A model generated the notes under the pieces. That model made no database searches and was not told the origin of the DNA. It saw only the letters and a program-made list of their open reading frames with translations. A program made the position numbers and the translations under genes. Positions 3,626-45,500 of a DNA stretch of 64,000 nt are shown one piece after another. The stretch is from Cephalotus follicularis (lineage: Eukaryota > Streptophyta > Magnoliopsida > Oxalidales > Cephalotaceae): the NCBI GenBank assembly GCA_001972305.1, contig BDDD01003374.1, positions 62,001-126,000 of the forward strand, written 5' to 3'. The stretch's first letter is position 1; each line of letters opens with the position of its first letter.

Positions 3626-3770
3626 TCGATGCTTAGCCCTGAGCGTCGACAATTTTAGAAAACACAAGTATGAAGCATCAATGGTTTGTTTGAAAGCATA
3701 AGGCGTCAACTGTTTGGTTTAACCCATAAAAGCGTCGACAGTTAAGAAGAAAGCGTCGACAGTTTTATCA
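3626..3770. other. GTCGAC-core motif array in LTR A (array 1)
   Basis: Sites include AAGCATCGATGCTTAG, GAGCGTCGACAATT, AGGCGTCAACTGTT, AAGCGTCGACAGTTAAG and AAGCGTCGACAGTTTT. Exact GTCGAC lies at 3645, 3734 and 3755. Several are hybrids with a GCGTCGAC left half and an ACAGTT right half, joining the two motif flavours seen elsewhere. Function unknown. Confidence 0.75.
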
Positions 3771-4479
3771 GAAATATCATTTTGCAAAACAGTTCCCAAT
3801 TCAGTGAAAACCATATCCAAAAAAGTTCAAAGCCCTTTTTAAGATTCATCCCATAGCCCTTGAATTGAGAGAAGGCAAGAACTCATCTCCTCTCAATTCA
3901 ACATCTAAACCTTATACCATATGTAATATAGACATCCCTCTGTATACTTGTATGTATATATATATGTGTGTGTGTTCAATCATGCATTCATACAATTACA
4001 ATTAGTACACATATCAATCCATATAACCATTTAGAATGCATAAATGCAATGCAGGTAGTATAACCTACTCTAGTGATCTACCATTCGTATAATATCATCC
4101 CATACTAGCGTATATAAAAGGGATCAAGCAATAGTCATATGAGCACGTACCATCTGAGTAATGTATACCATACCTGTTAATGATTGAGCTTGCGAGTCGG
4201 GAGGACTTGCAGTAGAATCGACGAACTGCCACCTCCTCTAAGCTCCACTCGTTGTTGCTAGCACAGCTCCATCTTGTGTCAGCAGAGCTCTATTTCTCTT
4301 TTAGCATCACTGCAATAACCATCACACATTCGTTACAACCTGCACAAAGGTAGCAATTACACATTGTCGTCACCAGAGTTCTGACCAAATTCCGGCAAAC
4401 CCATCAGGGCTCTGACCATGTCATAAACAAGTTCCAAATTGAACAGTCTACAGAAAACCGCTCAAGACTCGCCGTGAAT

Positions 4480-4700
4480 CAGCGTTGAAACCCCCTGTCA
4501 TGGCCGGCAGTGAGTTCAACTCATTGAGTTGACTCGCTGGTCAACCACAATTCTGATCACCACCCAAAAACATCATACAATCATCAGGTCAACACACCAC
4601 TACCTTAAACCGGCCAAGACTCGGCGCTAAACGCGCGGTCAAAGGCAGCAGCGAGTTAGGTTCACTGAGTCAACTCGATAGTTCAAATCCGACCGATTTT
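4480..4700. other. GACTCG/GAGTTGACTCG motif array in LTR A
   Basis: Repeated words are AAGACTCGCCGTGAATC, GCAGTGAGTTCAACTC, TTGAGTTGACTCGCTGG, AAGACTCGGCGCT, GCAGCGAGTTAGG and ACTGAGTCAACTCGATAG. The same words are arrayed in copia D LTRs at 43381-43640 and 55020-55400. Confidence 0.6.
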
Positions 4701-5343
4701 GGCTGAATGGAGCCTCAACAGTGGTCAAAACGGGCAGAGCTAGCCTTCTAGATGAAGACCAGCACCATCCGCGATGCTAACCAGCTGCAAAACGCACGGC
4801 AGAGGCGAAAACATTGGGGAAAGAGAAGAGAAAAAGAAGGAAAAGGGGAAGAGGAATGAGGAGTTACCGTCCGGTGGAGGTCCTGGGCTGCTCATCGTCC
4901 TCTCCTGTTCAGGTGGCTGGCTCCGGCGTCGTCTCCGGCACCCTCTCTCCCTTTCTCTCCCGTTGTCTCTCCCGCTGTATCTCTCTCTCTCACGTCTTTC
5001 TTCTTTCTATGCACGGGCGCCTTATGCGCCCGTGTCTCATTTCTTCTTCCTTTAAACTTTGCCTCTTCTTTAGTATTTATCAGCCAAAATACTAAGGTCT
5101 GGGTCCCGATTATCGTATTGAGACATAAATTATCCAAACGGCAACCAAAATAATCACAATAATAATGCGAACATAGGGCCTTATTGTCACGCATTAAAAA
5201 TGGGCTTTATTGACCGTTTTGGGCCTAGTAATTACGGGCTTTAATGAGCAATGCCTTTTATCACTCCGGACCTCCATCGGCTTATCACGGCCATACACTG
5301 TACCAATATTACAATAATTATTTATGAAATTCCGAGTGTTACA

Positions 5344-6011
5344 TCAGGTGTTATAAGCCTCCCTCAGATGAGTCATCAAGTTATTTTCATTAAAGCATGC
5401 CACCTAGCATTCCCTATCTTCCAATTTGATGACACCTAGCATTCAACTTCCTAAATTGGTGACACTTGGATTCTTATCCTCGCAAATTGCTGAGACTTAG
5501 CTATATATCAGGAGTCATAACTCCCCCAGTTTGACAGCTGCCTTTAGTTAGTTTAAGGTACTAAGCTGGCTGACAAAGATAAACTCTGCATTTGGACTTT
5601 TCTGCACAGGCAAAGCGCTGAAGCTTTGAAGCCAAGCGTCGTCGGTTACTCACAAAGCAACGCCGCATTTTGTAGAGTGTTGTCGATTAAGGGTTTTGCC
5701 AATGACCAATTTCAATCGCTTTTGAAGAGTCGTTGGTTGAAACGTAAGCATCGTTGGTTAACTACAAAGTGTTGTCACTTTGTTTGAGCCGTCGATGCTT
5801 TCAGAGTACTTGTGTTGGGGCTTCAGGATTCCAGTCGATGCTTGAGGAACCCGTCAGTGCCCAAGCTAAACTGTCGACGCTTTTAAGTTAGACAATCGAT
5901 GCTTTATTCTAGCCAGTTGATGCTTAACACAAGTTGATACAAAACAAGATATATAACATGACATAAATCAAAAGATCTTCAATAAACAACAACTCAACGA
6001 ATTTTATTACA
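5344..6011. other. Unassigned LTR-like remnant ending TTATTACA, with GTCGAC-type sites
   Basis: The segment lies between the end of family A copy 2 and the first base of the copia reverse transcriptase. It holds degenerate sites (CCAAGCGTCGTCGGTT, GAGCCGTCGATGCTTTC, AACTGTCGACGCTTTT with exact GTCGAC at 5873, GACAATCGATGCTTTA). It ends in TTTTATTACA, which resembles an LTR 3' end. I cannot find its other end or a family match, and no coding frame is supported. Confidence 0.4.
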
Positions 6012-6453
6012 TATCAAAAATGCTTTCTTACATGGTGATTTGGCTGAGGAAGTCTACATGAAGCAACCTCCTGGGTTTGTTGCTAAGGCGGGGAAATTAG
6101 TCTGTAAACTACGGAAATCTTCATATGGATTGAAACAATTTCCTCGTGCATGGTTAGGTAAATTCAGTGATGCTTTGGTGCGCTTTGACATGCGTCAATG
6201 TACGATTGATCATTCAGTTTTTAGTCTCACATCTACTGTTGGCTGTATTCTGTCAGTTGTTTATGTTGATATTGTGATTACATGCAGTGATACTAGCGGC
6301 ATTCAGAGGCTGAAACAATTTCTTCAAACTAAGTTTAGCACCAAGGATCTCGGCCATCTATGTCATTTTCTCGGTATTGAGATGGCTTTACTCAAGACAG
6401 GGTACTACTCTATCTCAAAGGAAGTACACCTTGGGCATACTTGGAGATACAGG
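6012..6453 (+). pseudogene. pol: Ty1/copia reverse transcriptase fragment (part 1)
   Basis: The frame from 6013 reads KNAFLHGDLAEEVYM, then KQPPGFV, KSSYGLKQ, DHSVF and GIEMA, all hallmark copia RT blocks, in a single plus-strand frame to about 6435. The catalytic YVDD box reads YVDIVIT at 6262-6279, so one Asp codon is missing and the polymerase should be dead. A one-base slip near 6435 moves the next block, LGDTG, to another frame. The gene is cut at 6453 by the 6454-13069 insertion and resumes at 13075. Gag, protease and integrase are absent: the remnant at 5344-6011 abuts the RT core on the left. Confidence 0.9.
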
Positions 6454-8367
6454 TGTGACACCCGTGTTATATTTTAGAGTTTAGTTAATCAAAGAGTTTA
6501 TTTTGTGAGCATGCCAATTATATTTTGATATGTGACTTTGGTGAAATTTTAAAGCATTCACTAATGAATTGATAGGCTAAGATATGAAATTTTATGATGG
6601 CTAAGTTACTAGTATGTTTATATGTTAAATATATTGAATTAAGGCCCAAGGTTATTTTTAAATGTATGGCAAAAATTCTCATGGATCTAGGGCCTAAATT
6701 TTTATGAGAATTCCTTGTAATTAAGGCCCAAATTGTCTCATTTAGAAGCCTAGACGATTAAGCATGGAATTAAGCCCAAAAACCAAGAATTAATCATGCC
6801 AAAATTTTGGCCAAGCTCCACATTTATCTCCAGGTTTCTAGCGCCTTCTATTCTTAATGTCTTATTTCTTTTACAAAGAGAACACACATGACATCTCTCA
6901 TTTCCTCTCCTTAAAGCTTAAGCTTACTCCACCTACAAGGCTTCCATCCCTTCCTCAACTTTCTTCTAAGAATGCAAGCTTATAAGTGAGCCATATTCCA
7001 TTATTCTAGCTCATAAGTGGCTTCTCTTCATTTTCCTGGCAAGTTTTGGTAAGTCACTTTGCCCTCTTTGTTAAGTTTAGTTAACATGTTTACATTACAG
7101 TCAGAAATTTCGGGTTTTACATTGGTGAAGTGGAGTAAATATTCTCCATGGTTTTAAAGAATGACTAATGAATGTTGGTAATCAAATAGCTTAAGAATAT
7201 GGTAGTATTTTAACATAGAGATCACTACTTTGATGCTGTATAATTTCGGCCATCTTAGTAAGTAAGGAGAATTGATTATTTATTTAAGGATATTATATGG
7301 TAATTAGTAAGTTGATAATTATATATATAGTGAGGGATTCTAGAAAGTAGAAATCAATTTAATTACTTTAAGTATTTGAAATTTGGTCTCCATGATGATG
7401 ATAAAGGATTAGAATTTCTTTAGTAGTAAGGAGATTAGATATTATTAGTAAGTGACATGCTTAGAGATATGGGTGAATGTAAGGAATTTAAGTCAAATTA
7501 ACCATTCCTTATGTGTAAAGAATTCGGTCATGGTAAGATTTATGGAAAATTGAAGTTGTATAATGTATTTGGTAAGATGCTAGTAAATATGGGGATTAAG
7601 AAATTAAAGGAATTAAGTTATTGGTTGATATCGGCATCTATAGCTGTCATGTTGCCGAAATGGCGTTTTAGTCACTTTTCTAACCTAGAGTGGTCTGATT
7701 GACTTCAAATTTTAATGGTAGACCTTAGGATAGGTTTAAATATTACCTGTAAATTTTTGTGCCAAACAGACTTAGTTTTGACCAAAAAGTTCGCTGTTAC
7801 GCTAAAATCGTTTTGAAACAGAGATTTTACATAGGAGCTTATAACTCTGCTTATCCATTTGAATTGATTTTTTTGAGCAGCAGAATCTTAGATATGTTTA
7901 AACACATTCCTGAAAGTTTGGTGTCAAACGGATATGATTTTGGCCAAAAAGTCTCGTTTTTGCAGTTTTTATGGAAAAATAGTTCAAACCTTAGTTTTTC
8001 AAAGTAGCTCATAGCTCCGATCATCAGTTTGACTTCATTTATTAGTGGTAGACTCTTGTGTAAGAATAAACACATTTCCCAAAGTTACAACTCTATTAGA
8101 TTTTAAAAATGGTAAAACGGTGTTAACTTTTGCTTTTGCGAAAAACTCGTTTAGCAATGACTTTACAAAGGAGACTAAAGCTCAGCTTGTCGATTTCACT
8201 CGATTTTTGAATGACAGACTACTGGGATCTTTTAATTATGATCTGGAAAGTTTCACTTTGATACGACATATTAATGTATATAGCAGCTCATATGTGCATT
8301 TCATGCATTCTATATGTATAAGCGTTTGATATGTAATTAATGAGATATCTATATAATGCTATTGTAG

Positions 8368-8434
8368 ACGAGGATCCTGTATCCGATCCAGGGCATCGCG
8401 GTGTTAGTTAGTGCTAGCTGAGTTCAGTAAATCA
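8368..8434 (+). other. Putative small LTR exon between splice-like signals
   Basis: TGCTATTGTAG ends at 8367 like a 3' splice site, and ATCA|GTGAGTGGGAC begins a 5' splice-like site at 8435. The two related LTRs have the same arrangement (8962-9021 and 61217-61274), with 58-67-nt intervals. A later branch-like GACTAACCCCC and TTTTGCAG at 12319-12348 could accept the second intron. Prediction only. Confidence 0.3.
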
Positions 8435-8961
8435 GTGAGTGGGACATTCCCTTCCTTTGTTTTACTTTGAGATTCTTGTTTATTGCATATGCCCTGTTGT
8501 TTGTTTTATATTATGATTCGGTCAGGATTTGTACGCCTGTATGTCCTTTGATAAACATATTTTGTAACGCCCTGTAGCTGTTTTGGAGTCTAAAAAAAAA
8601 CTTTTTCTATGGTGTATAATTTTTGTTTTTATGGGCTTTGGACTTATTTGAGTAAGAGAGGAAAGTTAAGTGTTAATTTTGTTATAAGCCCAAGTGTAAA
8701 GTGTGATTAGAAATAGTTGGAGGACTTAAGTGCAAAGCTTGTTGATGAAGTTTCCAAATCCCAAGGTTTAATGATGGTTTTGTGGAGATTAGCAAAGAGA
8801 TAATTTCTTTTGGTGTTGGCTTTTCCCTTAGCTTCGACAGGTTAGAGTGAAAGAGAGCTCTAGTTCTTCTTCTTCATCGTCCTTGTCTTTGACGAGCGGG
8901 AGGAGAAAAGCAGTTTGAAGCTTTCCAAGCTTAGCGGAGAAGCAGCCAGGCGCAGTAGCAG

Positions 8962-9021
8962 ACGAGGAGAAAGACGAGAAGTTCTCGTCAGAGGAAGCCA
9001 GTAAGAACGCAGCCAAGAACA
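8962..9021 (+). other. Putative small LTR exon (E copy)
   Basis: AGTAGCAG precedes and ACA|GTGAGTGGGAC follows. The interval starts ACGAGGA, as does the one at 8368. The downstream acceptor is damaged here (TTTTGCAATGG at 10109 instead of GCAG or GTAG). Prediction only. Confidence 0.25.
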
Positions 9022-9269
9022 GTGAGTGGGACATCCCTTCTATGTTTCTAGTTGTTTCATGATGTTCTTGATAACTCATTCAGTTTTCAATTTTCAGTAT
9101 AGTGAGAGCTTTCTAACAGGAATTTGTTTCCCTAGCATCTTCGTATGTTTTCCTTGACAAAAGAGAGAGAAAGAGAGAGAGTTTACGAGCACTAGAGCTC
9201 AAGTTTCTTCTAAGTGAATTAGTCACTTTCTAGAGAAGGTAACGCGTATGTGCTCAACCCCACTCCTCG

Positions 9270-9500
9270 ACCTACTATTGTCTATGATGGGAAGTCAAGC
9301 GAATCTGCCCCCAGGTCCTACCTAGATCTCCTTTACACTATTGTCTATGATGGTGTTTAGGGTTTGAGTGCAGTCGATCACTATGTACATAGCTCCAACC
9401 TCCTCAGTCTACTATTGTCTATGATGGAAAACCGAGCGAGACTGTCCCCAGGTTCTACCTGGATCTCTTTTACACTATTGTCTATGATGGTGTTTAGGGT
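9270..9500. repeat. Imperfect 137-bp tandem repeat in LTR E
   Basis: CTATTGTCTATGATGG occurs four times, as two long units whose first copies lie at 9275 and 9412. Each unit also holds GGTTCTACCTGGATCTC-like text and GTGTTTAGGGTTTGAGT. A single related word, CTATTGTCTATTATGG, occurs at 11587 in the host LTR. Confidence 0.7.
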
Positions 9501-10479
9501 TTGAGTACAACAGAGCTAAGTTGCCAAAACAGAGATTAGAGCCTTTTAGTAAGTCTTCTAGAGTAGGATTTTGTCCTCAGCAGTCATGCCTTCAGCTCAG
9601 ATAAGTAAGTAAAACAAAGAAATAGCAAGCTTAGAGGAGAACCATGGGTTCTCGGCAGATACTGCCAAGCAGGCTTCAGCCTAGATCAGCTCAGCTCAGC
9701 GCCACTATAAGTTTGCAACTATATTATGTAAACAGCAAAGCAAAGCATAGCAAAGAAAAGTAAGTTCCAAGCTAGTCTCATCATTCTCGGCACCTCATGC
9801 CAAGTTGGATCCTCTTCCAGAGTACTTCAGCAAGTTTTTGTTTTATCTCAAGTTTTTCTTCAGCTTTTGTAAGTATCTTAGAGCATTAGTTAAGAAGAGG
9901 AAAGAGTAAGCTTTTCTTTCATGTCCTTTGAGTGTTTCATCATATGTGAGCCACGACAATTATGTTTGTATAGTTGTTTTTCCCAGTTGGGATCCTTAAT
10001 CATGCTCATGGCATGCTTTCTTTCAGCACATTCATTTTAAAAAATATACTAGAGGATGTTTTGTTCTCATTCACTTAGTCAGTTGGACTAATCCCCTCGA
10101 AGATTCTTTTGCAATGGACCTAGCAAGAGGAGGAGAAGATCCTCTAGACCAGTAGTAGAGAGCTCAGGAAGGTAGCTTTTTGACCTCGACATCTCGGATG
10201 ATGCGGACCAGAAGTCTAGTATTGCATAGCATTGGGCATTCTTTGGGTTCCTTTACCCTTATTTTTGTAATAGAGTAGACGTGAGCCTTTTTTTTGGTAT
10301 GATAACCTTAAACATGAAAGATATGCTATTCTTTTTGCCGAGTTGAGGAGGCAATGTATGTTTATGCCAGAGGTGAAACTTGTAATGATTTTATACTTTC
10401 AAGAATGATATGGATGTTTTGAGTTAGTAGATTAGGTTTATCTTGTGTTTTATGGATATTTCCTGTTATGAGTTTGGTG

Positions 10480-11245
10480 TTTTCAGGTCTGTCCGAGGAG
10501 CTGGGGAGTCCTCAGATTTCTAGCAAAGGTTAGCTTAGCAGGGGAGATAGGTTTATGCTTGGGTGGACGGCTTAAGCTTAGAGAGTTTTACCCGATGAGG
10601 CATGGTGTCCTCTGGTGATGTTGGGCCTTTGGCGAAAGAGGCCGAGATGAGTCCTCGGGATGAGGTTAGGGGATCCAACCTTATGTTGGCCGGGGAAGAT
10701 TTCAAAGTTCTTAGAGTAAAAATGTTTAATCTTATGCTGTGCGTTTTGATGTTAGTATAGTAGTGTTTTTGGGTTAAGTAGGGGAGAAAGGTAGCGGGGG
10801 ACAAGGTGCGTCCTCGGGGGTTGAGAAGACCTTAGAGTTTATGTTTTCGTGTGAGGCGTGCGAGGATCTCTCCCTAGACTTTGTGTGAAGCATCCCTGGA
10901 GTGATCCTCTGCACTTTTCCTAGAGCAGTTTAGTTGAGAGTGCAGTTATGTTTAGTGTTGTCCTCGGATGTTGACAGAGGAGAAAGACCCGAGGACAAGG
11001 AGTGTCCCCGGGCATGTTTTGTCTACAGGTTGTTAAGTGAGCTTGTGAGTTGCACATGTGTGCTCTCTTCTGGGGTTTTATGTTGTTGCACGTTTAGCCC
11101 AGGCCTTCTCCTCGGGCTTTTTGCATGATATGTTCCTGGGGAGTCTTCAGATGGCTCCTCGGGTAGCTCCTGTTAGAGAGGGTTGTTGGCAGGAGCGCCA
11201 TCCTCGGCCAGGGCTCGTCCTCGGTAGAGTTAGCGGGAACGGGTC
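10480..11245. other. GTCCTCGGG/CCCGAGGAC motif array in LTR E
   Basis: Short words GTCCGAGGAG, GTCCTCTGG, GTCCTCGGGATGAGG, GTCCTCGGGGG, GTCCTCGGATG, CCCGAGGACAAGG, GTCCCCGGGC, CATCCTCGGCC and GTCCTCGGTAG recur on both strands. The 60566-63361 LTR carries the same array at 62800-63110. Role unknown. Confidence 0.6.
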
Positions 11246-12934
11246 ATGCCATATTTCTTGAATTGTATAGAGTTATTGATTTCTTGAGCGAGACTTGAGA
11301 TCCCACGTTTTATGTTGAGTATGTTCATTGTTTATAAAGTGATTCATGAGTATATATGTATGACACAGATTCTGGGTGACTAAATCGCCTTCCTATATTA
11401 TGTATCGTTGTTTTTGCGATACCGTATTTGTACTCTGATGCTGGTACAAGTGATATGTCATATATGATATTGGTCCAGGGTGAGGTGTATATTCGACGCT
11501 CAACTCTCCTTAGCTGGCCCATTGGTCTCTGATGGGGTGTTATGTGGGATCTGCCCCTGGGTTCCATATCTGGATCTACAGCATGCTATTGTCTATTATG
11601 GTATGCTGAGTTTGAGAATAGCAGAGCTGCTCTGTCGCCTACCCCTTGACCCAGTTTCAGATATTGTGTACCAGTGATGGTGTACCAGATTTTGTGCATT
11701 GGATATTGTGCACCAGATTCAGATATTGTGCACCAGTTCGTACACCAGATTTATCCTTAGGCACTCTGCACCGGTGTATGAGGGATATGTACAGTCCTAT
11801 AGCCTATGGATCAGATAGTATTGCTGCAGCCAGATTCAGTATTACCATTAGATATGGCCATATGGGAATTGACAGATATATTGGGAATTGACGGATATAT
11901 GTTGATGACAGCATAGTTGTACCAGCATCCAGTATTTCAGACAGCATAGTTGTATAAGTATTCTAGACAGTATAGATAAGCTAGTATTTCAGATATTATA
12001 TTATATGGGCACATTTCTTATTTTCTGATTTCTGATCATATTCGTAATTCTGGATATTTGATTTTCACTCTGATCTTATTGTGATTCTTTTGCACTCATG
12101 GAGTACCAGCTTGAGTTTTGAGGTTTGTTCAGTACACTTTCATTTTGAGTTATGAGTTTCTTTTTATTTGAGTCTGATTGATATTCTTTTCATGGATTAA
12201 TTCACTTTATTCATTGTTTTATATATCCTTGATATTTGCTATATAGTTTTCATTCAGCACATCCGATTCTTAATTGATGTAACAGGGAATGACTTGTCCC
12301 AACTCACTTAGTCATTTAGACTAACCCCCTCCCAGATTTATTTTGCAGTTGAGGCAGGAGTGGATGATCCAGTAAGATAGTAGCAAGTTTTGGAGGTAGA
12401 CCACAGGCCCAAGCACCATTCACTGGCAGTCATGGCCAGTTCCACATGCGTACATTGGGGCATTTTGGGGTTAATTTATTATATTATATGAGATAGTTGG
12501 CAATTGCTGAGTTATTGTCCCATTTTTGATAAATTATGATTGTATAGTGGTGTGATGAGACATGTATGATTTTGATGATCCTGTGACAAAATATAACTAG
12601 AATGAACTGTTGATTCCTCCTTCGGGAGTATGATGAATATAAATTGTGATTTCTTACAGGTGAAAATTTTTGAGAAATGTCCATTTTTATGGGGAACTCT
12701 TGAAGTTTTTCTGCAGAATTTCCACCCTATTTAATGGACAAATAAATAGATAATTTTTATGGATATTGAATTGAAATGAAAATAATAGGCTAAGGAGGTC
12801 AGAAATGAAATAAATTGGTGGGTGCTAGGTTATAAAGGGTTTGTCGATGTGTTATGTTATAAGGATAAAAGGTTAAATAAGTGTTTAAAATTTATAAAGA
12901 TAGTCTATTGGACAAGTTAATATAAAAACTCTAA

Positions 12935-12990
12935 AGTTAAGCGTGCTCAGTCAGGAGAAGTTTTAAGATGGGTGACCATATGGGATGTTG
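12935..12990 (+). ncRNA. 5S rRNA-derived segment near the LTR end
   Basis: AGTTAAGCGTGCT (12935-12947) and AAGATGGGTGACC (12965-12977), followed by a TGGGA block, match the 3' half of plant 5S rRNA in order and spacing. These are the internal promoter A-box and C-box regions. The 5' half of 5S is not visible, so it is not a functional 5S gene. Cassandra TRIM elements are a known precedent for 5S sequence in LTRs; this LTR is far larger. Confidence 0.7.
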
Positions 12991-13074
12991 TATTAAGTTT
13001 AACGTAGTTAGCCTATTGTAAAGCACGGCTCGTCGGAGTGGGTTAAGGTTAAAGGGACGGGTCGTGTCAACAGG

Positions 13075-13271
13075 TCTAATGGGAGCAAAACCTGTTGATA
13101 TCCCAATGGACCCAAATGTGAAACTTGATAATGAAAAAGGGGATTTGATGCATGAGCCTACAAAGTATAGAAGACTTGTTGGCAACCTTAACTATCTAAC
13201 AATAACTAGACCAGATATCTCTTTTGCAGTTGGTGTGGTAAGTTAGTTTATGAGTGCACCTCGTACACCTC
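13075..13271 (+). pseudogene. pol: Ty1/copia RT fragment (part 2)
   Basis: This continues the gene interrupted at 6453. It reads GLMGAKPVDIPMDPN, then YRRLVGNLNYLTITRPDISF, the C-terminal copia RT blocks. A TAG at about 13244 replaces the usual Gln before FMSAPRTP, so the frame is broken. LTR F is inserted directly after this block at 13272. Confidence 0.9.
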
Positions 13272-13454
13272 TGTTGACATTTTTGTCTCAGTCCTAAATT
13301 TTGATGATAACATATTTACATCTAATCATTTTTAGTTTATGTGCAAGGTGACAATGTTGAAAGTCAGGTAAAAGGACCTGCTCTTAAGTTCCCTGATTGT
13401 ACATCATGCAAGTTGACAAAGTTGACATTCAGGCAAAGGATTGCCTAAGGTGCA

Positions 13455-13690
13455 GAGCTCAGAGGCTAAAGGCAGACCTCAGACGTCAAGACAGAGCTAG
13501 GGAAAATTAAAGGCAGACCTCAGACGTCAAGGCAGAGCTAGGGAAATTAAAGGCAGACCTCAAACAATTGAGAGCAGATATGAGGTAATTGTTGAAGAGC
13601 AGACTTGCGTTAATCGTTGCAAAGCAGACATACGTTAAATGTTGTAGAGCAGACCTGCGTTAACTGTTGCAGAGCAGACCTCTGAGGCAA
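13455..13690. repeat. Two minisatellites in LTR F
   Basis: First, about 50-bp units share GGCAGACCTCAGACGTCAAG and GCAGAGCTAGGGAAA. Then about 30-bp units share AGAGCAGACCTGCGTTAA and TGTTGC, four imperfect copies at 13575-13690. Confidence 0.7.
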
Positions 13691-14088
13691 AGCAAATGTA
13701 GTCATAGGTAGAGGTCATAGCTCAAAACTCCAAGTCATATATCAAAGCTTGAAGGCAGACCTCGGAGGCAAAGTAAATGTACTAAGCATCAACGGTTAAG
13801 GAATGAAGTCTGAACAAGCAATACAAACCAAAGACGTTTTATTTAAAGTGGCAAAGCTTTACCAAGCGCCAGAGATGAAATGCCAAACAAAAAAGATTTA
13901 CACAGAAAGACTGAAAATAAGGCGTAACGGCAATATCAAAGCATCAACACTTAGATCGAAACCAGCAACGCTTTATCAGCAGATTCTGATATCCTTAAAT
14001 CTTATCAATGCTGAATCAATGACAGAACTTTCCAAAACATCTCTAACGGCTCTCTAATATCTCCAACGGCTATATCCTGTAAAAACTC

Positions 14089-14097
14089 TATAAATAG
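14089..14097 (+). promoter_or_regulatory. TATA box of LTR F
   Basis: TATAAATAG lies about 820 bases into the LTR, followed by an A-rich leader. It is the best TATA match in the LTR and probably marks the U3/R border. Confidence 0.6.
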
Positions 14098-14297
14098 GAG
14101 GCTTGGATCAAACAGCAAAGAGAAGAACAAAAGCAGCAAAATACAACAACCAGCACAACAATTATTCATGTCAAGATTCTTTCAAGAGCTTTATAGTTGT
14201 GTTATCTTGAGCCATTGTTGTGAGCTTATTAATTATATACCCAACCTTAGAGAGGTTATACAAGATCACCAATCAACATTGTATTAGTTTGATTGTA

Positions 14298-14385
14298 AAG
14301 GGGAGTGAACCCGAAGTGTGATTATCAAGGGGAGTGAACCCAAAGTGTGATTACCAAGGGGAGTGAATCCAAGGTGTTGTGATTG
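14298..14385. repeat. 29-bp repeat, three units
   Basis: GGGGAGTGAACCC, GAAGTGTGATTATC and close variants follow one another three times with a period of about 29 bases, downstream of the TATA box and so presumably in the transcribed R/U5 part. Confidence 0.75.
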
Positions 14386-15710
14386 AGTTCAATCACAGAA
14401 AAGTGTAAGGGGCACTGAATTGTTCCTGTAAAGTAATTCGGAGATTGTATTCAAGGTTGAATACTAGTGGAATTGCAAGAGGTCTTGAGAAATTGGACGT
14501 AGGCAAGAGTTTGGCTTAACCACTCTAAACCGTGTTTGCAAAATCTTCTAACCATCACTCTTCTTTTTCAAGGTTGTAAAGTAATTCAGAGTTTGTATTT
14601 GGAGATTGTATTCAAGGTTGTATTAACACACCCCGTTTTCATTAACACACATGGTTATCATTTAATCCAATCTTATCAAAATAATCATAAATTTAAAACT
14701 TTGCAGAAGCATTCAATATACTGGATTATTTAAAGGGTATTCGCATGCAGCCCATACTACATGCTACCAAGTACGAGACAAGTTATATATTACACATCAG
14801 AAATGTAAATATAACATAATGGAGTATGACTTATTACAATTTCAACAACCTTAAAACAAAGAAGCTCTCCAAAGTACGGCTTCAACAACAAGTATCCAAT
14901 TCCTTCATTAATCTATAATAGTAGGTATTAGCCTTTGTCCTCACTCGGCTAAGTAGGAGATATGCATGAATGTGAAAATATAAATGTAATCATGCATGAT
15001 AATTTATATCTTTTAAACAGTATATATATATGAATCAACATATATAAGCAAGCATGCCAAGTGACTACAATCAGTCAATTATCAAGAATACCACACAAGG
15101 GTACAAACAATCAGTTGTCCAAAGACCAGTAAAGAGTGTCACATGCCGCTAACTCCAAGCCCCAACTGTGCACCACCTAACTAACACCATGCACTCCGAT
15201 GATGATAAAAAAAGGTAAACAGTGTTGTTGACACTTGGTGGGCAGCTAACATTCAAGATATGCAATGCATATAAGTTTGGTGTATATGCTCTAGCCAACT
15301 CCTAGCACCTAGGCTCGCCTCTGTAGTCCGTGATACACTCCGATCACAAGACCATTAGAAACTATCAATCACAAATAGTACAATATAGTATAGATATTAC
15401 ATATATAATGTAATACAACAGTAGTCTCGTTTTGAGAAAACAGTAAAACAGTTCAGTAAAATCTTTTTTTAGAGAAAGCAGTAACAGTACAGTAAGTTTT
15501 CATTTAAGAAAACTTTAAACAGTCAGTAGTTCTCACTTGGAGAAAACAGTAGTGGAAAACCTTTAGTTATGCATATAGCACTCATTAGTTTAAAATCCTT
15601 GAAAACAGTAATGAAAACAGTAAACAGTTATTTTCATGGTATGCAATGCATAATAGTAATTCAGTCAATTTCAAGGATTGAAGCATAAACAAGATAAAAT
15701 TATCTACTGT

Positions 15711-16960: not shown

Positions 16961-17136
16961 TAGCCCCTTATGTTATTTCAAATAACCTCCAATTTATTTC
17001 TATTTTCTCCCCTTTTCCTTTAATTCAAGAACAATAATTTATTGGAATCAAGGGATAATTAAACAAAATTTGAATTCAATGTGTAATTTATTTATTATTG
17101 TACAATATACATTAAATCGAAATTACGGTTATTACA

Positions 17137-20621: not shown

Positions 20622-20633
20622 GTAATAGGAGTT

Positions 20634-33085: not shown

Positions 33086-34487
33086 TAAGTGACAGATTAC
33101 TGATATTAGCTATTGTTAGGCTGTAAATTGTGTGTAGTTACCCTGGCCTCCACATGGGATGATTGTAATAGTCAATCCTGGTCTTATGTAGTTACATTAC
33201 AGAAAGTAAACAACTTATGCATTCATTGTGAGAGTTATGCAAAAATGACTAAGGTATACTAACATCTTGTTTGAACCCTTGAATTGTAATTGTTCCACTA
33301 TTGTTTAATGATGCTGTTATACATACTGTATAGCTATTAAGTGTTCTTAATTACTATTATTACACTTAATATTAATGATTGAACCCACTAGTACTATAAG
33401 CACAAATATGGATTTTCTTCTTATTGTTTTAAAATGAAAACTTATTGTCTAATGATTTACTGATTTTCCTCCATTGAGAGGCAACCTTACTATACTGAAA
33501 ATCGTTTCCTCCAACGAGAGGTACGGTTACTGAACTGTTAAATGTTTCAAAAGAAAACAACTTTTATATTGCATATTATAGATATATGTAATATTGCTAT
33601 TGAATTGATTGTCTATGTTATTGCCATTAGTCGAGTGATAGGAGACATCACTGGCTACGGGGTGGTCCTATGTGTCAGGAGTTGGCTAGAGCTTCCACCA
33701 CACTTATCTGCAATGCAGATCCTGATTGTTACCTGCCCACTAAATGTCGGCAGAATTGACATGATCTATCATCTTCAGAGTGTAGGGTGATAGTTAGGTG
33801 GTGCACAGTTGGTGCTAGGAATTAGCGACATGTGACACCCAAACCACTGTATTGATTGAATTTACCCTTGTGAGGTATTTTTGAATTGTATTGTCTATGG
33901 ACACTTGGCATGATTACTCATATATATTGAAATACTTATTTACATATGCTATTTCAAAATAAACTGTCATACATGTTTACATTTATATATTCTTTCTCAT
34001 GCATTATTCCTACTTAACCAAGTGAGGACAACGCCCCCTACAATTTCAGATTGACGAAGGAGTTGGTCAAGTGCTGCTGAAGCTTTATTGGAGAGTTTCT
34101 ATCTTGTTTAAGGTTGTTATTTTTGTCTTAGACTGAAAGGAACGATCATACTTCGTTGTTGTTGTTTTTACATTTCCAATATGTAAAAGAATAATTTTTG
34201 TTGGTACTGTATAAGAACGTAGTATGGGCTGCGTGCAGATAATTTTTATAATCAGGAAATGAAATGCTTCCGCTTATGTTATGAATGTTGATTAATGTTG
34301 AATGCTGGATTATTATTTATATATGATATCATCATATATGTTGTCTTAATGAAAAACGGGGTGTGACAATATATAAGGCACTGTCACAAGCCGGCAGGTC
34401 AATAGCTGAAAATAAACATGTCTCTTATAATTACCAAGTCTCGTTGGCTTATTCAGTACAAATCATATAGAAAAACCCATAACGTGG

Positions 34488-34555
34488 GGCAGTCGACTAC
34501 TCAAGGTCTAACAGTCAACTGTTTAAGTGGACAGTCGACTGTTCTGCTCGACAGA
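34488..34555. other. CAGTCGACTG motif array in LTR A (copy 3)
   Basis: GGCAGTCGACTACTCAAGG, ACAGTCAACTGTTTAAG, ACAGTCGACTGTTCTG and CTCGACAG follow each other; exact GTCGAC at 34492 and 34533. The flavour equals that of the B LTR nested in the same host, not that of the other A copies. Confidence 0.85.
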
Positions 34556-35826
34556 AAAGCACAAACAGCAATTTCAATTCCAATTTTCTGTCAAAACTCC
34601 AATATTACAACACTTAGATGATCTTAAACACTTATATAAGACTTATGTGACTTATTAGTTGCATATAAAGCCAAGAAATCATGCAAGGGTAATCATGCTT
34701 TAAGAAGGAGCAAAATTCTAATTCATAGCATGCATAACTATTAATCAATTTCTGTCATATACCAATTTCTAGTTTCAATATATATTTATAACCATTACTA
34801 AACACTTCAGGGCTTGCTAACAATCTCAGAAACATTAACCAAACATACATGGCAGGGATTAAAAACAAAACACACCAGAAACCTATATGCAATGGAGTTT
34901 GATAACCTTAAAGCAAAAACTAAATGCTAATCATAACAACAGAGGAACAAACCTGATTCAGTGAAGCAATGCAGCACAAAACAGATTCCAATTCATGCAA
35001 TTTAGGCTACCAAGCACAATGACATGGTGGAGGCATAACAAGGAGGTATAGTATACATATACCACTTAGAAAAGGCAATTCAGGTCATGCTAAGGCAAAA
35101 AGAAAATCAAAATCTGTTATGATAAGGAAAAATGAGCAAAATTTTGGGATTGATAGGGAGGAAGAGGCAGAAAATCGTTTTTGTGAGGGAGAGGGGAGAG
35201 GTGTACGGGAGAGTGAGTGAAAATATAAGGGAAATAAATCAATTTGCCTAAAATACATTATTCTATTTCCAAATAAAACACCTTTAATAATAATACTGAT
35301 TTTAAAATACAAAACAAATAAACTTTTAACTAAAATTTCATGATTTGTTTTCCAAATTGAAATAATTTGCCATATTACAATATTACACTATTTTATTTCC
35401 AAATAAAATACTTTTGTCATTTTCATAATAAAACTTATTTTCATTCTTTTAAAATTACAAATAAAACTAATATTACTTATCCATGTACATATTCTTTCAA
35501 TATCCAAAAATCCAAAGTAAAATCATATAGCCCAAACACAAGAGCCCATAATAATAAAAAAAAAAGGCCATCATAATAACAAAACAAATAATAATCAAAT
35601 AATAATCCGAAAATATGCACACGAAAATCGGGGTATTACAATTTATTTTATTTTGAATAATTAGGAGTAGTTTTCATAATTAAACCATGATTTCGCATAT
35701 TTCGCCTAGGTTTGATAAATTACAATTAGTTTAACGTTTCCCTGCGTTCGACCCGTTACTTCATGATCCGTACACTTGCGGCTATAAATTTTAAAACAAC
35801 ATTCTTTTTGACAGTGAACAAGTTTT

Positions 35827-39972: not shown

Positions 39973-40496
39973 TGATATTCGGTAAACCCTACCCCTTTGT
40001 TCTTTATTTTATTGAATTGTTTCTTATATTTTTGTGATCATGCATTGTTGTTTCTTTAGTATCATACGTCTTGTCATCACCGTTGCACTCCGTATCGACC
40101 TAGCTGCCGTTGGTTATCAAGGTATGATCGTTCAATTACATGGAATTGTTCAATACAATCTACGGTGAGTTTCTATACCCTAAAACCGCTTCTTAATTAT
40201 ATATTGTCTTCACTTTTATTAGTTGTTCTGATTCGTTTTAAAATTGCATGTTTTATTTCTTGGTGTTTAGAATTCAGCGTTTATAATTCTCGAAGTCTTA
40301 ATTTTCTGTTTTGATTATTTATTTTATTTTGAATAATTAGGAGTAGTTTTCATAATTAAACCTTGATTTCGCATACTTCGCCTAGGTTGGATAAATTACA
40401 ATTAGTTTAACGTTTCCCTGCGTTCGACCCGTTACTGCATGATCCGTGCACTTGCGGCTATAAATTTTAAAACAACATTCTTTTTGACAGTGAACA
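39973..40496 (+). mobile_element. Athila 3' region and right LTR piece
   Basis: 40314-40496 matches 35641-35820 (TTTATTTTATTTTGAATAAT, TTTAACGTTTCCCTGCGTTC, CACTTGCGGCTATAAATTTT). The start of the right LTR cannot be placed because the left copy is cut at that point; no clear polypurine tract was found after the integrase stop. The TATAAATTTT word may be promoter-related. Confidence 0.6.
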
Positions 40497-40919: not shown

Positions 40920-41155
40920 ATCAGCCCGCCCGGAATTGCGAGGTCCCATCGTAATATATATCGGTCCTCCCGCACTTGCGGGGGTTCGATTGCAATTATA
41001 AGGTTCCATTATAATTTATATCGGTCCTCCAGCACTTGCGGGGTCCCATTTCAATTTATATCAGTGCTCTTGCACTTCCGAGGTCCTATTTCAATTTATA
41101 TCGGTCCTCCCACACCTGTGGGGTCCCATTGGTCCTCCCATGAAGTGGGGTCCCT
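40920..41155. repeat. Minisatellite TCGGTCCTCCCGCACTTGCG
   Basis: About four to five units of 45-60 bases share TATATCGGTCCTCCCGCAC, TTGCGGGGTCCCATT and TCAATTTA. It replaces, at the same place in the LTR, the CACAATGTGAGGT minisatellite of copy 2. Confidence 0.75.
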
Positions 41156-41399: not shown

Positions 41400-41565
41400 A
41401 GGGCACTAAGCGTTGACGCTAAGCAACCAGGCATCGACACTTAGCACTTTAAGCGTCGACTGTTTGGTGTTGGCGCTGACGCTTAAGTGTTTTAAGCGTC
41501 ATTGAAACACAATGCAAGGCGTCGACGGTTAAAAAGGAAAAGGGTAGAACGCGTCGATGCTTTGA
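41400..41565. other. GTCGAC-core motif array in LTR A (40497 copy)
   Basis: Sites are TAAGCGTTGACGCTAAG, AGGCATCGACACTTAG, TTTAAGCGTCGACTGTTTGG, GGCGCTGACGCTTAAG, AAGGCGTCGACGGTTAA and ACGCGTCGATGCTTTG; exact GTCGAC at 41455 and 41521. AAGCGTCGACTGTTT is a true hybrid of the AAGCGTCGACGCTT and AACAGTCGACTGTT flavours. Confidence 0.8.
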
Positions 41566-42273
41566 ACAGAAACATGCGAGAAAACAGTTCAAAATCAGTG
41601 GAAATCATGTCAAAAACCCAGAGAATCCGTTTTAAAACCAGTAAAATCGGATTATTCACATACCCAGCTCCCATTTCATCTATTTATCATGTGAATCCAT
41701 CAACCACTCAATAGCAGGAAGATATTCAAACAAAATGCAGGAATTTGGCAAATAGTATAACCTACCTTTTGAAATGACGATTTAGCTTGCAACAATGGAG
41801 AATTTGCTGTCAAAATGATGAGCTGTCAGTGCTTCAAGCCCCACTACCAAGCTCTCCCTTCTTCCTTGTCACTGCCTCTCTTCCTCCCTTTCTTCTTTTC
41901 TTCCTTTTCTTCTTCCTTTTTCCTTATGTTTTCTTCCTTTCCTGCTGGCTCTCTGTTTCTTCCTCTTTACTCTTCTTTTCTCACGCGGGCTCTCTTTTCT
42001 TTCTTTTTGTTTTTGGCGAGGCAGTGGGTGTGGTAATATAAAGGAGAGAAAAGGTAACCGCCTTTGGCGTTTTGCAATAATCAATAAAGCATTGGCCCCA
42101 TATATATATTTATATATGCTCCTTTCAATTATTTAATGCTGTTTGGCCTTAATAATTCACAAAAGAACTATACCGTATAGCACAATATAGCACATCAATA
42201 AAATAACATATCCAAAGCACCATTTCATAATGTTATTTATTACAACTATTTACAATTAATTGTAGGGCTTACA

Positions 42274-42286
42274 TCCTCCCCTCCTT
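42274..42286 (-). promoter_or_regulatory. Polypurine tract
   Basis: The minus strand reads AAGGAGGGGAGGA directly before the LTR start TGTAAGCCC. It fixes the sense strand of family A and of the flanking chromovirus. Confidence 0.9.
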
Positions 42287-42995
42287 AAAGAAATCTCATC
42301 CCGAGATTCTCTAAGGTCAAAACAGATAAGGATACAATGCTCTCATGTCGTCCTCACTCTTCCAGGTTGCCTCTTCGATTCCGTGATGCTGCCACAACAC
42401 TTTAACCAATGCAATCTCCTTGTTTCTTAGCTACTTGGTTCGGAGATAGAGAATCTGAACAGGCATCTCTTCAAAGCTCATATCTGCCTTTAATTCCAAC
42501 GGCTCATACTGTAATACATGTGAAGTATCTGGGTAGTACTTCCTCAACATTGACACGTGGAAGACATTGTGTACCTCTGATAACTCTGGCGGTAAGGCAA
42601 GCCTGTAAGCAATAGAGCCTACACTCTCGAGGATCTCAAAAGGTCCGATATACCGCGAAGCTAACTTCCCTCTTTTACAAAACCTCATAACTCCCTTGGT
42701 TGGTGAGACCTTGAGGAATACATGATCCCCCACATAGAACTCTAAATCCTTCCTTCGGTGATCTGCATAACTCTTCTGCCGACTTTGAGCTGTTAAGAGC
42801 CTTTCCTTGATCATTTTGGCCTTTTCTGTTGTTTCCTGTACCATCTTTGGCCCTAGGAGACTCTTTTCACCTACCTCAAACCAATATACCAGAGTTCTGC
42901 ACTTTCATCCATATAAGGCTTCAAACAGTGCCACGCCGATACTAACATGGAAACTGTTGTTATAAGAGAACTCCATCAAAGGCAAATGTTCCTCC
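42287..42995 (-). pseudogene. pol: Chromovirus integrase C-terminus and chromodomain
   Basis: In sense from 42985: EEHLPLMEFSYNN, then 42844-42431 with QETTEKAKMIKERLLTAQSR, FYVGDHVFLKVSP, GPFEILESVGSIAYRLALPP and VHNVFHVSMLRKY. After one stop come LRNKEIALVKVLWQHHGIEE and ATWKSEDDMRALYPYLF, a chromodomain-like tail ending near the PPT. It is the 3' end of the pol gene that continues at 57166; the copia element at 42996-57165 splits it. Confidence 0.9.
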
Positions 42996-45500
42996 TATTG
43001 GAAACCTGGCAAGGGTTCCCGGTCGATTTGGCCCTAGGATGCAAGTGTGCATAATTTTAATTTTTCAAAAACACCAAGACAGCAAGTCAATGTTCACACT
43101 AACATCTTAGTACCAAATAAATAAGCCTAGGATATCCGTTTAATTAACAATCGAACAAAAAAAAATCTCAAGCATGCATACAAATATAAACCGAAACCAT
43201 ATAGGTAACCATAAATATAAAATGGAAGCGACCAAACCAACGTTGGAGGCTCCGCCACTTTGCCACTACACGCTTGAAGTAGCCACCACCCATCACTGGA
43301 CCCACGGCCCCGAATCTGGCTAGCCTGTCAGATGCCGATCAAGACACCAACGGACTCCAGATGCACTGATCTATCCACTGGTGGTGGAGACTCGGCGGGA
43401 AGCTCCCCGAAAAGCTCAGGCGCCGCTGGCAGTGAAAGCAACTCGCTTTGTTGGACTCAGCGAGTTCCGATTCAACCAACTGGTGGACCAGCAGCGCCAT
43501 AACCAGCTTCCAAAAGCCCCGATCTTCTCATTGGTGGCTGAGACTCGCTGCGACTCGCCATGGAACGAGCGGTCACAGCGAATCAGCGAGTCTGGCTCAC
43601 TGAGTCGACTCGCCAGACCAAACCAGAGCCGACCACTTCAGCCCCGTGCCATAGAGCACCCGATCTAGGAACCAGCAACAAGGACTCACCGTGACTTAGG
43701 GCGTAAAGCCAAGTCATAGCGGCCCGACGCGTCAACTATTCCAGTTGACTCACCGAACCCAAACTGGCCAGAAAAAGACCGGAAAACAACAAGAAAGATC
43801 AAAATGGATAGAGCCATCGATTTGGCTCCACCCACAGTGATCATCAATGGTGGAAGAGACGTCGGGAGCAGCGTGAGGGTAAAAAACGTGTCACTGTTGT
43901 CAAAGAGAAACAGAGGAGAAACAAGGAGAAAACGGGAGAGAGAGGGGAGGAGACATACCGTGGAAGGACGATCACCTTCTTCCGGACACCGGCGCGAAGC
44001 GCCGTCGTCTTCTCCTGCCGAGCGCGCCTCTTGCTCACTGAACACGTTAAACACATTGCTCTCCATTGCCAAAAACGCATCCGTGCATTTTTGCGTGTGT
44101 TATGGCCATAAGAGACAAAAATTCACTTAAGCCAAAAACCAATTTTCCCTTACACTAAAATGTCTCTCACATTTTTAATTTAAACTTGTTTCTCGCTTTA
44201 ACAATTAAAGACTCTCTTTAATTTGATTTAATAAAAATTAAATCATGCTCCGGCATCAAATCTCTTAATATATTAATAAGGCAAATTGTGGAGACAGAAA
44301 CCAACCAGAAATGTCTAATTAATATATGCTAGTTAAAAACTAGATTTACCACCAAGCGAGTGTAGCATGCATCACTTTTCCAATAATCAAGAGGGACCCG
44401 AAAGCCCGGTGGATTTTTGGTGCAATGATAAATCTCTCAAAACATCCCAAAGTTCTGGTACGACTATCCAGCTAGTAACCCTGATGTGATCTATAATCAC
44501 CCCCGGATCCGTGGACCACAAAGTAGCACGTCTACCATTCGTTAGCCGGTTCCCCAGTGCTTTATCACTGTCATCGGCTTGTGTGTCGCATATCCTTCAT
44601 CATCTCGGCTCTGACTGAGGAATGTCACCCCGATGTAAAACCGCGATAACAATAATTCCATGATCGCACTGAGACTATGGGAGATATCCTCAGAAACCTG
44701 TCGTTCCCAATCTCCCAGTGCCTGGCCAGGATTTTAAGTCTTCAACGGTCATAGATGTTATAGAGCCTATAACCTTCAACACGGGTGTGATGATCCCATC
44801 TTGCGAACTCTCCCATACATCTCGATGCAGCTCCCACAAGGCCCAAAGACTATCCTTTTGACAGCACGTGGCTAGTGCCGGGGAAGGCGAAAATCAAAGC
44901 CAAACAATTACTGCACAATGCATGCCAGCCGCTCAAGTCTAAGGACAAAACCTAAATCACGTATCATATACTAGTCACCTTTGACTAAACACTATCGCGA
45001 CAATAGGAACTCTATTGACAGAGGTGTTGACTCTCCAAATAGATAACCTATGGTGGGTCGGTTCAGTGTCGTGCCTCTGCACGCACCCCACATTAGCTTT
45101 AGGGTAAAACCCAAATGGCAATGAGATGATCCATCCTCCTTTACCATTCAGAGCAAGCATAACATGGCAAGTGTTTTGTGTTCATCAATTGCCCTAAGAA
45201 AGTGAGCCTATGACTTGAAACTTTTGTCACAAGGGAGTAAGGATCTCATTCTCATAACCTCTCAGGCATGAGATCCAACCGTTTATGGACAATGCGCTAT
45301 ATGTGTATTCAGATGACATGGTGATCAACTGATCCATTGAGACAGTTTGGGATAATACATATAGCCAGATGCCAATGATTATTAAATATGCACAATAGAA
45401 TACGAATGGAACTAAGAATGTATGATTCAAGAGTGTGTCATATGTAAAGTACATATGTCTACAGCCTCCTCGTGGCTTGCAGGGACACCCTAATCTAACA
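42996..45500 (-). mobile_element. Copia D 3' LTR
   Basis: On the plus strand it runs from TATTGGAAACCTGGCAAGGG to CACCCTAATCTAACA and matches 54642-57165 throughout (2,505 against 2,524 bases). The terminal TG has mutated to TA. Positions 44188-45500 recur at 47253-48565 inside the tandem duplication. Open frames at 43381-44130, 44975-45160 and 45227-45454 recur between copies only because the LTR does. Confidence 0.9.
43381..43640. other. GACTCG/GAGTCGACTC motif array in copia D LTR
   Basis: Words include GAGACTCGGCGGG, GCAACTCGC, GGACTCAGCGAGTTCC, GAGACTCGCTGCGACTCGCC, AATCAGCGAGTCTGG and CACTGAGTCGACTCGCC (exact GTCGAC at 43604). The matching LTR repeats the array at 55020-55260. Confidence 0.75.

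Follow-up and report, generated by a model that had tools for sequence, protein, structure and literature searches.

It is understood only in part how silenced plant retrotransposons come to be expressed again. A 64,000-nucleotide stretch of the Cephalotus follicularis genome (contig BDDD01003374.1, positions 62,001 to 126,000; hereafter the window) raises the question of what the hexamer GTCGAC does in the long terminal repeats (LTRs) of several retrotransposon families, where it forms short arrays. GTCGAC occurs 31 times in the 64 kb, against 5.1 expected from a dinucleotide model and 5.5 from a trinucleotide model. It has the highest observed/expected ratio among all 64 palindromic hexamers. 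Among hexamers of any kind with at least eight occurrences in the window, its ratio of 6.1 is exceeded by three overlapping words of the extended site (CGACGC, 10.5; GCGTCG, 8.5; TCGACG, 8.4). The original prediction, about 30 exact copies clustered in 14 intervals and few elsewhere, agrees with the count: 29 of the 31 lie inside those intervals, and just two lie outside, at 37992 (in a pol region) and 57464. One interval, 43381–43640, is not an array; it holds a single GTCGAC in a different context (CGAGTCGACTCG, in an LTR of the copia element E), with no phased array.

The word is concentrated in the array-bearing LTR blocks. Ten such blocks (19.4 kb) contain 28 GTCGAC against 1.60 when each block is dinucleotide-shuffled separately (sd 1.16, maximum 7, 300 shuffles), and the remaining 44.6 kb contains 3 against 3.35; as the block limits were set with the arrays already in view and the remainder includes both E LTRs, which lack arrays, these figures gauge concentration and not the prevalence of arrays among LTRs. 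Without A2 and C2, which are second copies, the count is 22 against 1.22 expected. The two LTRs of element E, which has a weak RVT_2 match, contain 1 and 0 exact GTCGAC and no array, and a matrix trained on the B and C arrays is not clearly enriched in them.

The arrays (sites being GTCGAC or a transition variant unless stated) lie in LTRs of both orientations. LTR A1 (14620–17136, minus strand), from a chromovirus-like gypsy element, starts with TGTAATAACC at 17136 after a polypurine tract, its left end being approximate, and has beside it SH3_Tf2-1 (17184–17501) and a weak rve match (17924–18259), both on the minus strand. It carries array A1b (15735–16115, minus; 10 sites, sense word GTCGACGCCAAG) and array A1a (16685–16945, minus; 7 sites, neighbour steps including 19, 19 and 22 bp). 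A second, truncated A LTR, A2 (20634–22164, minus), is 91% identical to A1 and has arrays at 20750–21150 and 21705–21970. LTR H (31806–34367, plus; TGTAATAATCGC...GGGGTGTGAC) carries array H1 (31955–32080, plus; 6 sites, one of which, TTCGAC, is outside the transition set; AACAGTCGACTGTC) and array H2 (32970–33085, plus; 6 sites at steps of 20, 21, 21, 21 and 20 bp; AACAGTCGACTGYT). In LTR C1 (18324–19736, plus; TGTGATGACCCG...GGGGGCGCTACA), array C1 (18560–18775, plus) has 7 sites with the word GTCGACGCTT, the first two steps and the last being 21 bp. LTR C2 (24977–27131, plus) is 80% identical to C1 over the first part and 93% over the last 192 bp; in its array (25219–25428, plus) a run of four sites with 21-bp steps begins at 25219, and two of the four (GACGAC, TTCGAC) are one-step variants outside the transition set. 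Array B1 (41400–41570, minus; 5 sites, GTCGACGCTT) belongs to an LTR starting at 42273, with one end placed, that adjoins SH3_Tf2-1 in 42431–42904 (minus). Array B2 (3640–3775, minus) has 4 sites with the GC arm on the sense side in 4/4, in an LTR of a gypsy-like element on the minus strand with its sense start at 5344 (TGTAACACTCGG), again with one end placed. Array J (34488–34555, minus; 3 sites, steps of 22 and 20 bp) lies in a putative LTR on the same strand starting at 35640 (TGTAATACCCCG), of which one end is placed.

Two arrays are likely to sit in copia elements. Array D (5630–5940, plus), made of GTCGAC/GTCGAT-GCTT words, occupies a putative LTR at about 5351–6010 with approximate ends and no target site duplication (TSD) seen, and its assignment is based on adjacency to a copia reverse transcriptase fragment (RVT_2 in 5986–6474). 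In these 660 bp the B/C-trained matrix has 9 matches in sense and 7 in antisense, where shuffles give 0.13 each. Array I (24095–24610, minus; 9 sites, word GTCGACGCCATGG) is assigned by the E-like LTR sequence (24994–24747) and E-like leader (22758–22221) on either side of it; it may also be a nested gypsy LTR, and neither a TSD nor a primer binding site was found in its surroundings.

The arrays had been placed in gypsy families A, B and C and in copia D, held to be otherwise unrelated, with shared ancestry excluded as an explanation. That the families are unrelated is only partly right, and the exclusion of shared ancestry is not supported as worded. The LTRs of A and H are 67–73% identical in the head, 69% in the tail and 65% in a middle anchor, which lies 70–80 nt ahead of array 2 in A1, A2 and H, so the arrays are homologous in place. 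B and C have in common a 34-nt block of two units (30/34 identical). Both A and B have SH3_Tf2-1 beside the LTR, and Ty3/gypsy chromoviruses have such an SH3/chromo region on the integrase side, immediately ahead of the 3' LTR; among the best 120 of 7987 relatives, those named to species are nearly all from flowering plants. Such kinship would suit a functionless minisatellite: a GTCGAC repeat of 19–22 bp in an ancestral gypsy LTR would survive in part in the LTRs descended from it, and the copia cases would be gypsy sequence brought in by nesting or recombination, as the failure to find a TSD at I would allow. At matching places, however, the A and H arrays differ in arms and step (GCCAAG and 19 or 22 bp where close in A; CAGTCGACTG and, in H2, 20–21 bp in H) and have the same core.

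The structure of the units also bears on this choice. A palindrome of 10 to 14 bases had been described, which applies in full to H and J only, where CAGTCGACTG is present. A, B, C and D have a directional word, GTCGACGCY, that points downstream in all four, and I has it weakly (6 vs 5 of 9 sites). Of the 53 sites of A, B, C, D and I together, 40 have the GC arm on the sense 3' side and 13 have it on the 5' side; orientation is meaningless for H and J, which are symmetric. Many of the one-step variants (GTTGAC, GTCAAC and GTCGAT) fit C-to-T change at the CpGs of GTCGACGC, from which GCCGAC (4 of 12 H sites) is not derivable in this way. When units are compared with one another, identity is 61% in the arms next to the core, 33% in the flanks and 26% by composition (mean of nine arrays). 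In eight of the nine arrays the arms resemble each other more than the neighbouring flanks do, the flanks being close to chance; A1b is the exception (0.44 vs 0.43), and A1a shows a small contrast (0.41 vs 0.27). The whole-length unit identity of a simple minisatellite is thus absent from the mean of the nine arrays, with A1b again apart. Tandem Repeats Finder reported repeats in H2, with a unit of 21 bp, and in A (parts of A1b), with units of 19 and 48 bp, and called no repeat in the other arrays. The B/C-trained matrix picks up A, D and H well above shuffles. The common orientation, the called repeats and A1b are what a decaying minisatellite could leave; arms that outlast their adjacent flanks are unlike neutral repeat decay, and the persistence of CpG-containing cores within CpG-depleted LTRs also speaks against it. 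We consider this origin possible, but on the unlikely side.

Neighbouring sites tend to be two helical turns apart. Across all copies, 26 pairs are separated by 19–22 bp against 7.0 expected, and 22 non-redundant pairs against 5.8 remain when second copies are dropped. A period scan peaks at 10.5 bp, where a circular test on 60 non-redundant sites gives R = 0.381 (0.088 in the jittered-site null; 0 of 4000) and p = 0.0013 without H2. Subsets gave p = 0.015 for A, I and D alone, 0.0015 for H and J alone, 0.15 for C, B and D alone and 0.10 for I alone. Phasing at 10.5 bp past the nearest neighbours hinges on H2: at distances of 24–110 bp, p = 0.16 when H2 is left out, and the scan peaks at 11.0 instead of 10.5 when it is kept.

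Clustering, conserved arms, free spacers and the 19–22 bp phasing make a binding-site array the best reading, and we give a probability of about one half to the arrays being cis-regulatory elements inside the LTRs for a dimeric, most likely host-encoded factor. The earlier idea of a palindromic site for a dimeric factor is kept in this form, except that the site is not a simple palindrome in most families. Each unit would be a candidate site for a single protein, most likely a dimeric host transcription factor. With about two helical turns between units, the bound proteins would all face the same side of the DNA and could bind jointly, driving the LTR promoter or keeping it open. Clustered, conserved LTR sites with free spacers are the pattern of a host-factor enhancer, and all arrays but A1b, which lacks the arm/flank contrast, agree with it. 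The arrays would have been inherited along gypsy lineages with a turnover in which arms and step change and the core stays, resembling that of VANDAL/VANC target repeats, and would probably have been gained by, or exchanged into, copia-type LTRs as well. A word still recognisable in two-turn arrays despite LTR divergence suggests that several families rely on a single protein, and the array, a short and defined DNA, could be used as bait for it. In the literature consulted, no factor shown to bind the GTCGAC word was found.

The CpG at the centre of the intact core offers a possible on/off switch, because its cytosine methylation could prevent binding. Observed/expected CpG ratios are greater within the array than outside it in 10/10 blocks (8/8 without second copies), partly by definition. 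The central CpG is kept in all 12 sites of H, which is CpG-poor outside its arrays (0.43), and lost in 9/17 A1 sites and 5/9 I sites. Differences between A1 and A2 amount to 15.5% within motif stretches vs 7.1% in the rest, and those between C1 and C2 to 18.6% vs 17.4%; in A1/A2, CpGs have been lost as often within motifs as outside them (17/44 vs 16/39). Nothing therefore protects inserted copies, as the minisatellite origin would also have it. The CpG decay suggests past methylation of the copies and might indicate sites through which a host silencing factor recruits RNA-directed DNA methylation to the LTR. We regard this as most improbable, since elements would be expected to shed such sites and not to multiply them, and the arms are conserved in most arrays.

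A role in RNA, with self-complementary units of the genomic RNA forming hairpins or serving in dimerisation or packaging, would explain the directional orientation and the stable folds of several arrays (z against 100 shuffles: H2 -11.2, B1 -4.5, C1 -4.2, I -3.9, J -3.1, H1 -2.5). Good folding is, however, expected of any palindrome array; A1a folds no better than shuffles (-0.1), A1b is weak (-1.8), and values of -2.3 and -2.4 were also obtained for two of the three control stretches. Position is mixed, which also weighs against the enhancer reading: arrays are found both upstream and downstream of TATA-like matches, which are unverified. D may lie downstream, as may, depending on the match chosen, B1, J and, in A and H, the second array, whereas the first arrays of A and H and C1 lie 150–450 nt from the LTR start, C1 (about 240–430 nt) preceding a TATA-like match located at LTR position 666. 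An RNA-level role is improbable.

The comparison with VANDAL transposons of Arabidopsis proved apt. The VANC target motifs are short, dense, tandem, non-coding and in one orientation, and their variants differ between related families (PMC5735166); the directional arrays of A, B, C and D have this anatomy. AT9TSD1, unrelated to VANDAL, carries VANC6 words and is hypomethylated by VANC6, a precedent for sharing across kinds of element (PMC5735166). A protein encoded by these elements, or by others, might likewise bind the arrays and strip silencing marks, diverged arrays matching diverged proteins, and the CpG-rich patches inside CpG-poor LTRs would fit. VANDALs are DNA transposons whose binder is element-encoded, and here several families of LTR retrotransposons share one core, whereas the VANC21 word is described as rare outside VANDAL21 and the VANC words YAGTATTAY, AGTTGTCC and AGTTGTAC are not CpG palindromes (PMC5735166). 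Neither a VANC-like domain nor another binder gene was found by Pfam in 30 of the 143 ORFs of at least 75 aa, the elements here being incomplete and broken, and sites in inserted copies lose CpG like their surroundings. Such anti-silencing by the elements themselves is quite unlikely; if the binder were element-encoded, it would be a VANC-like system in LTR retrotransposons, of which we know no earlier case. It is also unlikely that a trans-acting system spans the superfamilies, with gypsy and copia LTRs of one plant having converged on or exchanged helically phased arrays of the same CpG-centred word. The reader would then be one host protein, or an anti-silencing protein encoded by an element and exploited by many families, and arms and step would co-evolve with that protein.

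CBF/DREB factors follow the binding rule RYCGAC. GTCGAC, GCCGAC, ATCGAC and their complements fit this rule, but GTTGAC and GTCAAC do not, and it covers neither the symmetry nor the GCY or CAG/CTG arms. Another parallel is offered by the clustered heat-shock-factor sites in the LTRs of ONSEN, where they arose by duplication, and of other COPIA families, several of which duplicated or independently gained them (PMC5059998). As described there, those are clusters of a few adjacent nGAAn motifs bound by HSF (PMC5059998), unlike the 3–10 units per array at 19–22 bp steps in mostly gypsy elements here. In mouse IAP LTRs, dimeric CREB1 binds a CpG-centred palindrome, the CRE TGACGTCA, and is blocked by methylation (PMC9729108). 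IAP is a mammalian retrovirus-like element, and the sections of that source on its CRE do not mention phased arrays (PMC9729108). If the central CpG gates binding, the arrays would be a plant counterpart to this control.

In the control stretch 6500–14600 the matrix had 7 matches over the two strands, and none of 60 shuffles gave more than 3; the matches are degenerate words, chiefly at 13784–13973, and there may be a decayed array there.

The window contains 31 copies of the palindrome GTCGAC where 5.1 are expected. No other palindromic hexamer (64 in all) reaches so high an observed/expected ratio; when hexamers of every kind are compared, it is outranked by CGACGC, GCGTCG and TCGACG, overlapping pieces of the extended site. 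The original prediction had described clusters of this word in 14 intervals, and this observation is confirmed, with 29 of the 31 copies falling within them. Ten LTR blocks (19.4 kb), the limits of which were set after the arrays had been seen and are approximate at the ends of B1, B2, J and D and at the left end of A1, contain 28 copies vs. 1.60 in per-block shuffles keeping dinucleotides. The remaining 44.6 kb, which take in both array-free LTRs of the copia element E (1 and 0 exact sites), hold 3 vs. 3.35 in dinucleotide-preserving shuffles. When A2 and C2, the second copies of A1 and C1, are left out, 22 sites stand against 1.22. The interval 43381-43640 was rejected as an array, having a single exact site in a different context.

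The window is plant DNA packed with nested LTR retrotransposons. A protein search with the B-element protein, which gives no DNA context, found 7987 relatives; of the best 120, nearly all that carry a species name come from flowering plants, and the top identity is 71%. The gypsy LTR A lies on the minus strand, starts with TGTAATAACC at 17136 and adjoins an SH3_Tf2-1 domain and a weak integrase match. The B1 LTR, also on the minus strand, starts at 42273 with SH3_Tf2-1 in 42431-42904, and that of B2 starts at 5344. H is a plus-strand LTR at 31806-34367. For C1 and C2 (plus strand, termini TGTRATGACCCG to (G/A)CGCTACA), the putative LTR J (minus strand, start 35640) and the putative LTR D (beside a copia RVT_2 fragment, with no demonstrable TSD), LTR status is judged by termini and location rather than by complete elements.

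The carriers had been taken for unrelated families, which holds only in part. A and H are homologous over the first 72 nt (67% with A1, 73% with A2), at a middle anchor (65%, A2) and in a tail of about 800 nt (69%, A1), and in A1, A2 and H alike a second array starts 70-80 nt past the middle anchor. What is left is a group of gypsy LTRs, certain pairs of which carry evidence of common descent, together with two probable copia cases, D and I. The array stretch I (24095-24610) is probably a copia LTR, since it lies between E-like LTR sequence (24994-24747, 64%) and an E-like leader (22758-22221, 68%), and E itself has a weak RVT_2 match and a PBS. Alternatively, I may be an inserted gypsy LTR; its middle part cannot be aligned with E and shows a weak, purine-rich resemblance to A, and a TSD for I was found under neither reading.

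The sites read in the sense direction are GTCGACGCCAAG in A, GTCGACGCCATGG in I, AA..GTCGACGCTT in C and B, GTCGA(C/T)GCTT in D and AACAGTCGACTGTY in H and J. In A, B, C, D and I the GC arm lies downstream of the core at 40 of 53 sites and upstream at 13 of 53; by family, the downstream and upstream counts are 9 vs. 2 in B (n = 9), 11 vs. 2 in A (n = 17), 11 vs. 4 in C (n = 14), 3 vs. 0 in D (n = 4) and 6 vs. 5 in I (n = 9). With B and C as its training set, a matrix gave, at a looser cut-off, sense/antisense matches of 10/3 in A1, 9/1 in A2, 9/7 in D, 8/6 in H, 3/3 in I and 2/2 in J, where shuffle means were at most 0.5 per strand; by this measure a strand bias is present in A only. Among the controls, E2 had 3/0 and E1 had 2/1, and none of four stretches without arrays exceeded 3 on either strand. 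A fifth stretch, 6500-14600, had 5/4, and 7 matches in total passed a stricter cut-off, where none of 60 shuffles gave more than 3. These bunch at 13784-13973, two of them spaced 21 bp, with no exact GTCGAC there. The stretch represents a control that failed or else a decayed array, possibly in another element. On the minus strand at 13784-13973, degenerate words like AAGTGTTGATGCTT and AACCGTTGATGCTT lie downstream of a TATA-like TATTTATAGAG. A W-box (WRKY) reading of the variants GTTGAC/GTCAAC was rejected, these being taken as CpG decay of GTCGACGC.

Neighbouring sites follow one another at 19-22 bp in 26 pairs, where 5000 random placements predict 7.0 (maximum 18), and in 22 pairs vs. 5.8 (maximum 15) without second copies. 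The steps are 20, 21, 21, 21 and 20 bp in H2 (the second array of H), 21 and 21 in the first of C1, 21 and 22 in B1, 22 and 20 in J, three of 19 and two of 22 in A1, and three of 19 in A2. In a period scan over 7-15.75 bp, R is highest at 10.5 bp, where it reaches 0.381 against 0.088 in the jittered null (0/4000). The value at 10.5 bp was 0.289 (p 0.0013) without H2 and 0.263 (p 0.005) for distances of 24-110 bp only, where the maximum shifts to 11.0; with both restrictions it was 0.170 (p 0.16). The phase had p 0.015 in A, I and D alone and p 0.15 in C, B and D alone. The two-turn neighbour step is thus firm, and the longer-range helical phase, which leans on H2, is suggestive. A pure 21-bp lattice was rejected, as period 21 reaches 0.218 vs. 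0.381 at 10.5 and the close steps of A are 19 or 22.

Sites were picked by their core and not by their arms, so core conservation is no evidence here. In nine arrays, which do not include J, D and A2, mean identity between units is 61% at the eight arm positions flanking the core, while the next three positions per side and positions 8-14 both reach 33% against a composition expectation of 26%. H, B and C show this contrast strongly and I and A1a (one of the two arrays of A1) moderately; in A1b, the other, it is absent (0.44 vs. 0.43). All 10 blocks have a higher CpG observed/expected within the array than outside, which is in part a matter of definition. The central CpG says more: all 12 H sites keep it inside a CpG-poor LTR, while 9 of 17 A1 sites and 5 of 9 I sites have lost it. 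Comparison of copies shows no extra conservation of the motif stretches (differences of 15.5% vs. 7.1% elsewhere for A1/A2 and 18.6% vs. 17.4% for C1/C2), and CpG loss between A1 and A2 is similar in motifs (17/44) and elsewhere (16/39). Inserted copies therefore appear to decay as other methylated DNA does, and constraint, if any, would have acted on active masters. A hypomethylation footprint in inserted copies was rejected, none being visible in A1/A2, as were RNA hairpins as a common property, A1a giving no hairpin signal.

The best reading is that these are predicted cis-regulatory protein-binding arrays inside LTRs, to which we give a probability of about one half, a value brought down slightly by the arms of A1b, by the differences between copies and by the control stretch that exceeded its shuffles. 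Such an array fits the concentration of sites in these LTRs, the conserved arms next to free spacers, the two-turn steps and the turnover that A and H show at a fixed place. The symmetric core would suit a dimer, as originally predicted, and the directional arms could reflect asymmetry of the dimer or a partner. CBF factors recognize RYCGAC; the site variants GCCGAC (4 of 12 H sites), ATCGAC and GTCGAT match this rule, which makes a DREB-type factor a candidate binder, not more. The central CpG might act as a methylation switch by analogy with CREB1, for which one study describes such a switch at TGACGTCA in IAP LTRs (PMC9729108).

The interpretation given in the original prediction is partly supported, and its analogy with VANDAL elements is structurally good. 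VANC targets are described as densely packed, arranged in tandem with one orientation and variable among related elements, and VANC6 words occur also in the unrelated AT9TSD1 (PMC5735166). The VANC system has its own binder, whereas no binder gene was found here in the 30 ORFs scanned of 143. Two-turn phasing, directionality, the arm/spacer contrast and A-H array turnover are additions to that prediction. Three exact array patterns had no match in viral contigs, protein-guided scans of which gave no relatives, and one exact pattern matched 4 bacterial records among genome contigs. No paper on GTCGAC palindromes in LTR retrotransposons was found in the open-licence literature, which is weak as evidence of absence; one match for GTCGAC was set aside as cloning primers.

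Several further features were noted in the window. A 76-bp GC-rich stretch (74%, E 1.6e-8) is common to the gypsy-like B2 LTR (4618-4692) and the copia E LTR (43552-43627) and lies near words like GAGTCRACTCG; it may come from an exchange between the superfamilies or be an insert common to both. Direct repeats of 180 bp (97%) at 35641-35820 and 40317-40496 bracket an array-free gag-protease-RT-integrase gypsy element with one GTCGAC. Tandem repeats of 40 and 60 bp (GGTCCTCC...GGGGTCCC) lie at 40941-41130 within the B1 LTR, close to its array. A tandem duplication of ~3070 bp (44188-50323, 99.5% identical) starts inside the copia E LTR at 42998-45500, and recent ones, whose units of 252 bp and 366 bp are 98-99% alike, lie at 650-1153 and 1936-2683. 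Splice-donor-like GGTAAG/GGTAGG was seen by eye in or adjoining the LTR leader of A, B1, C, H and I, and in both A and H the second array follows downstream of such a word, perhaps in an LTR intron.
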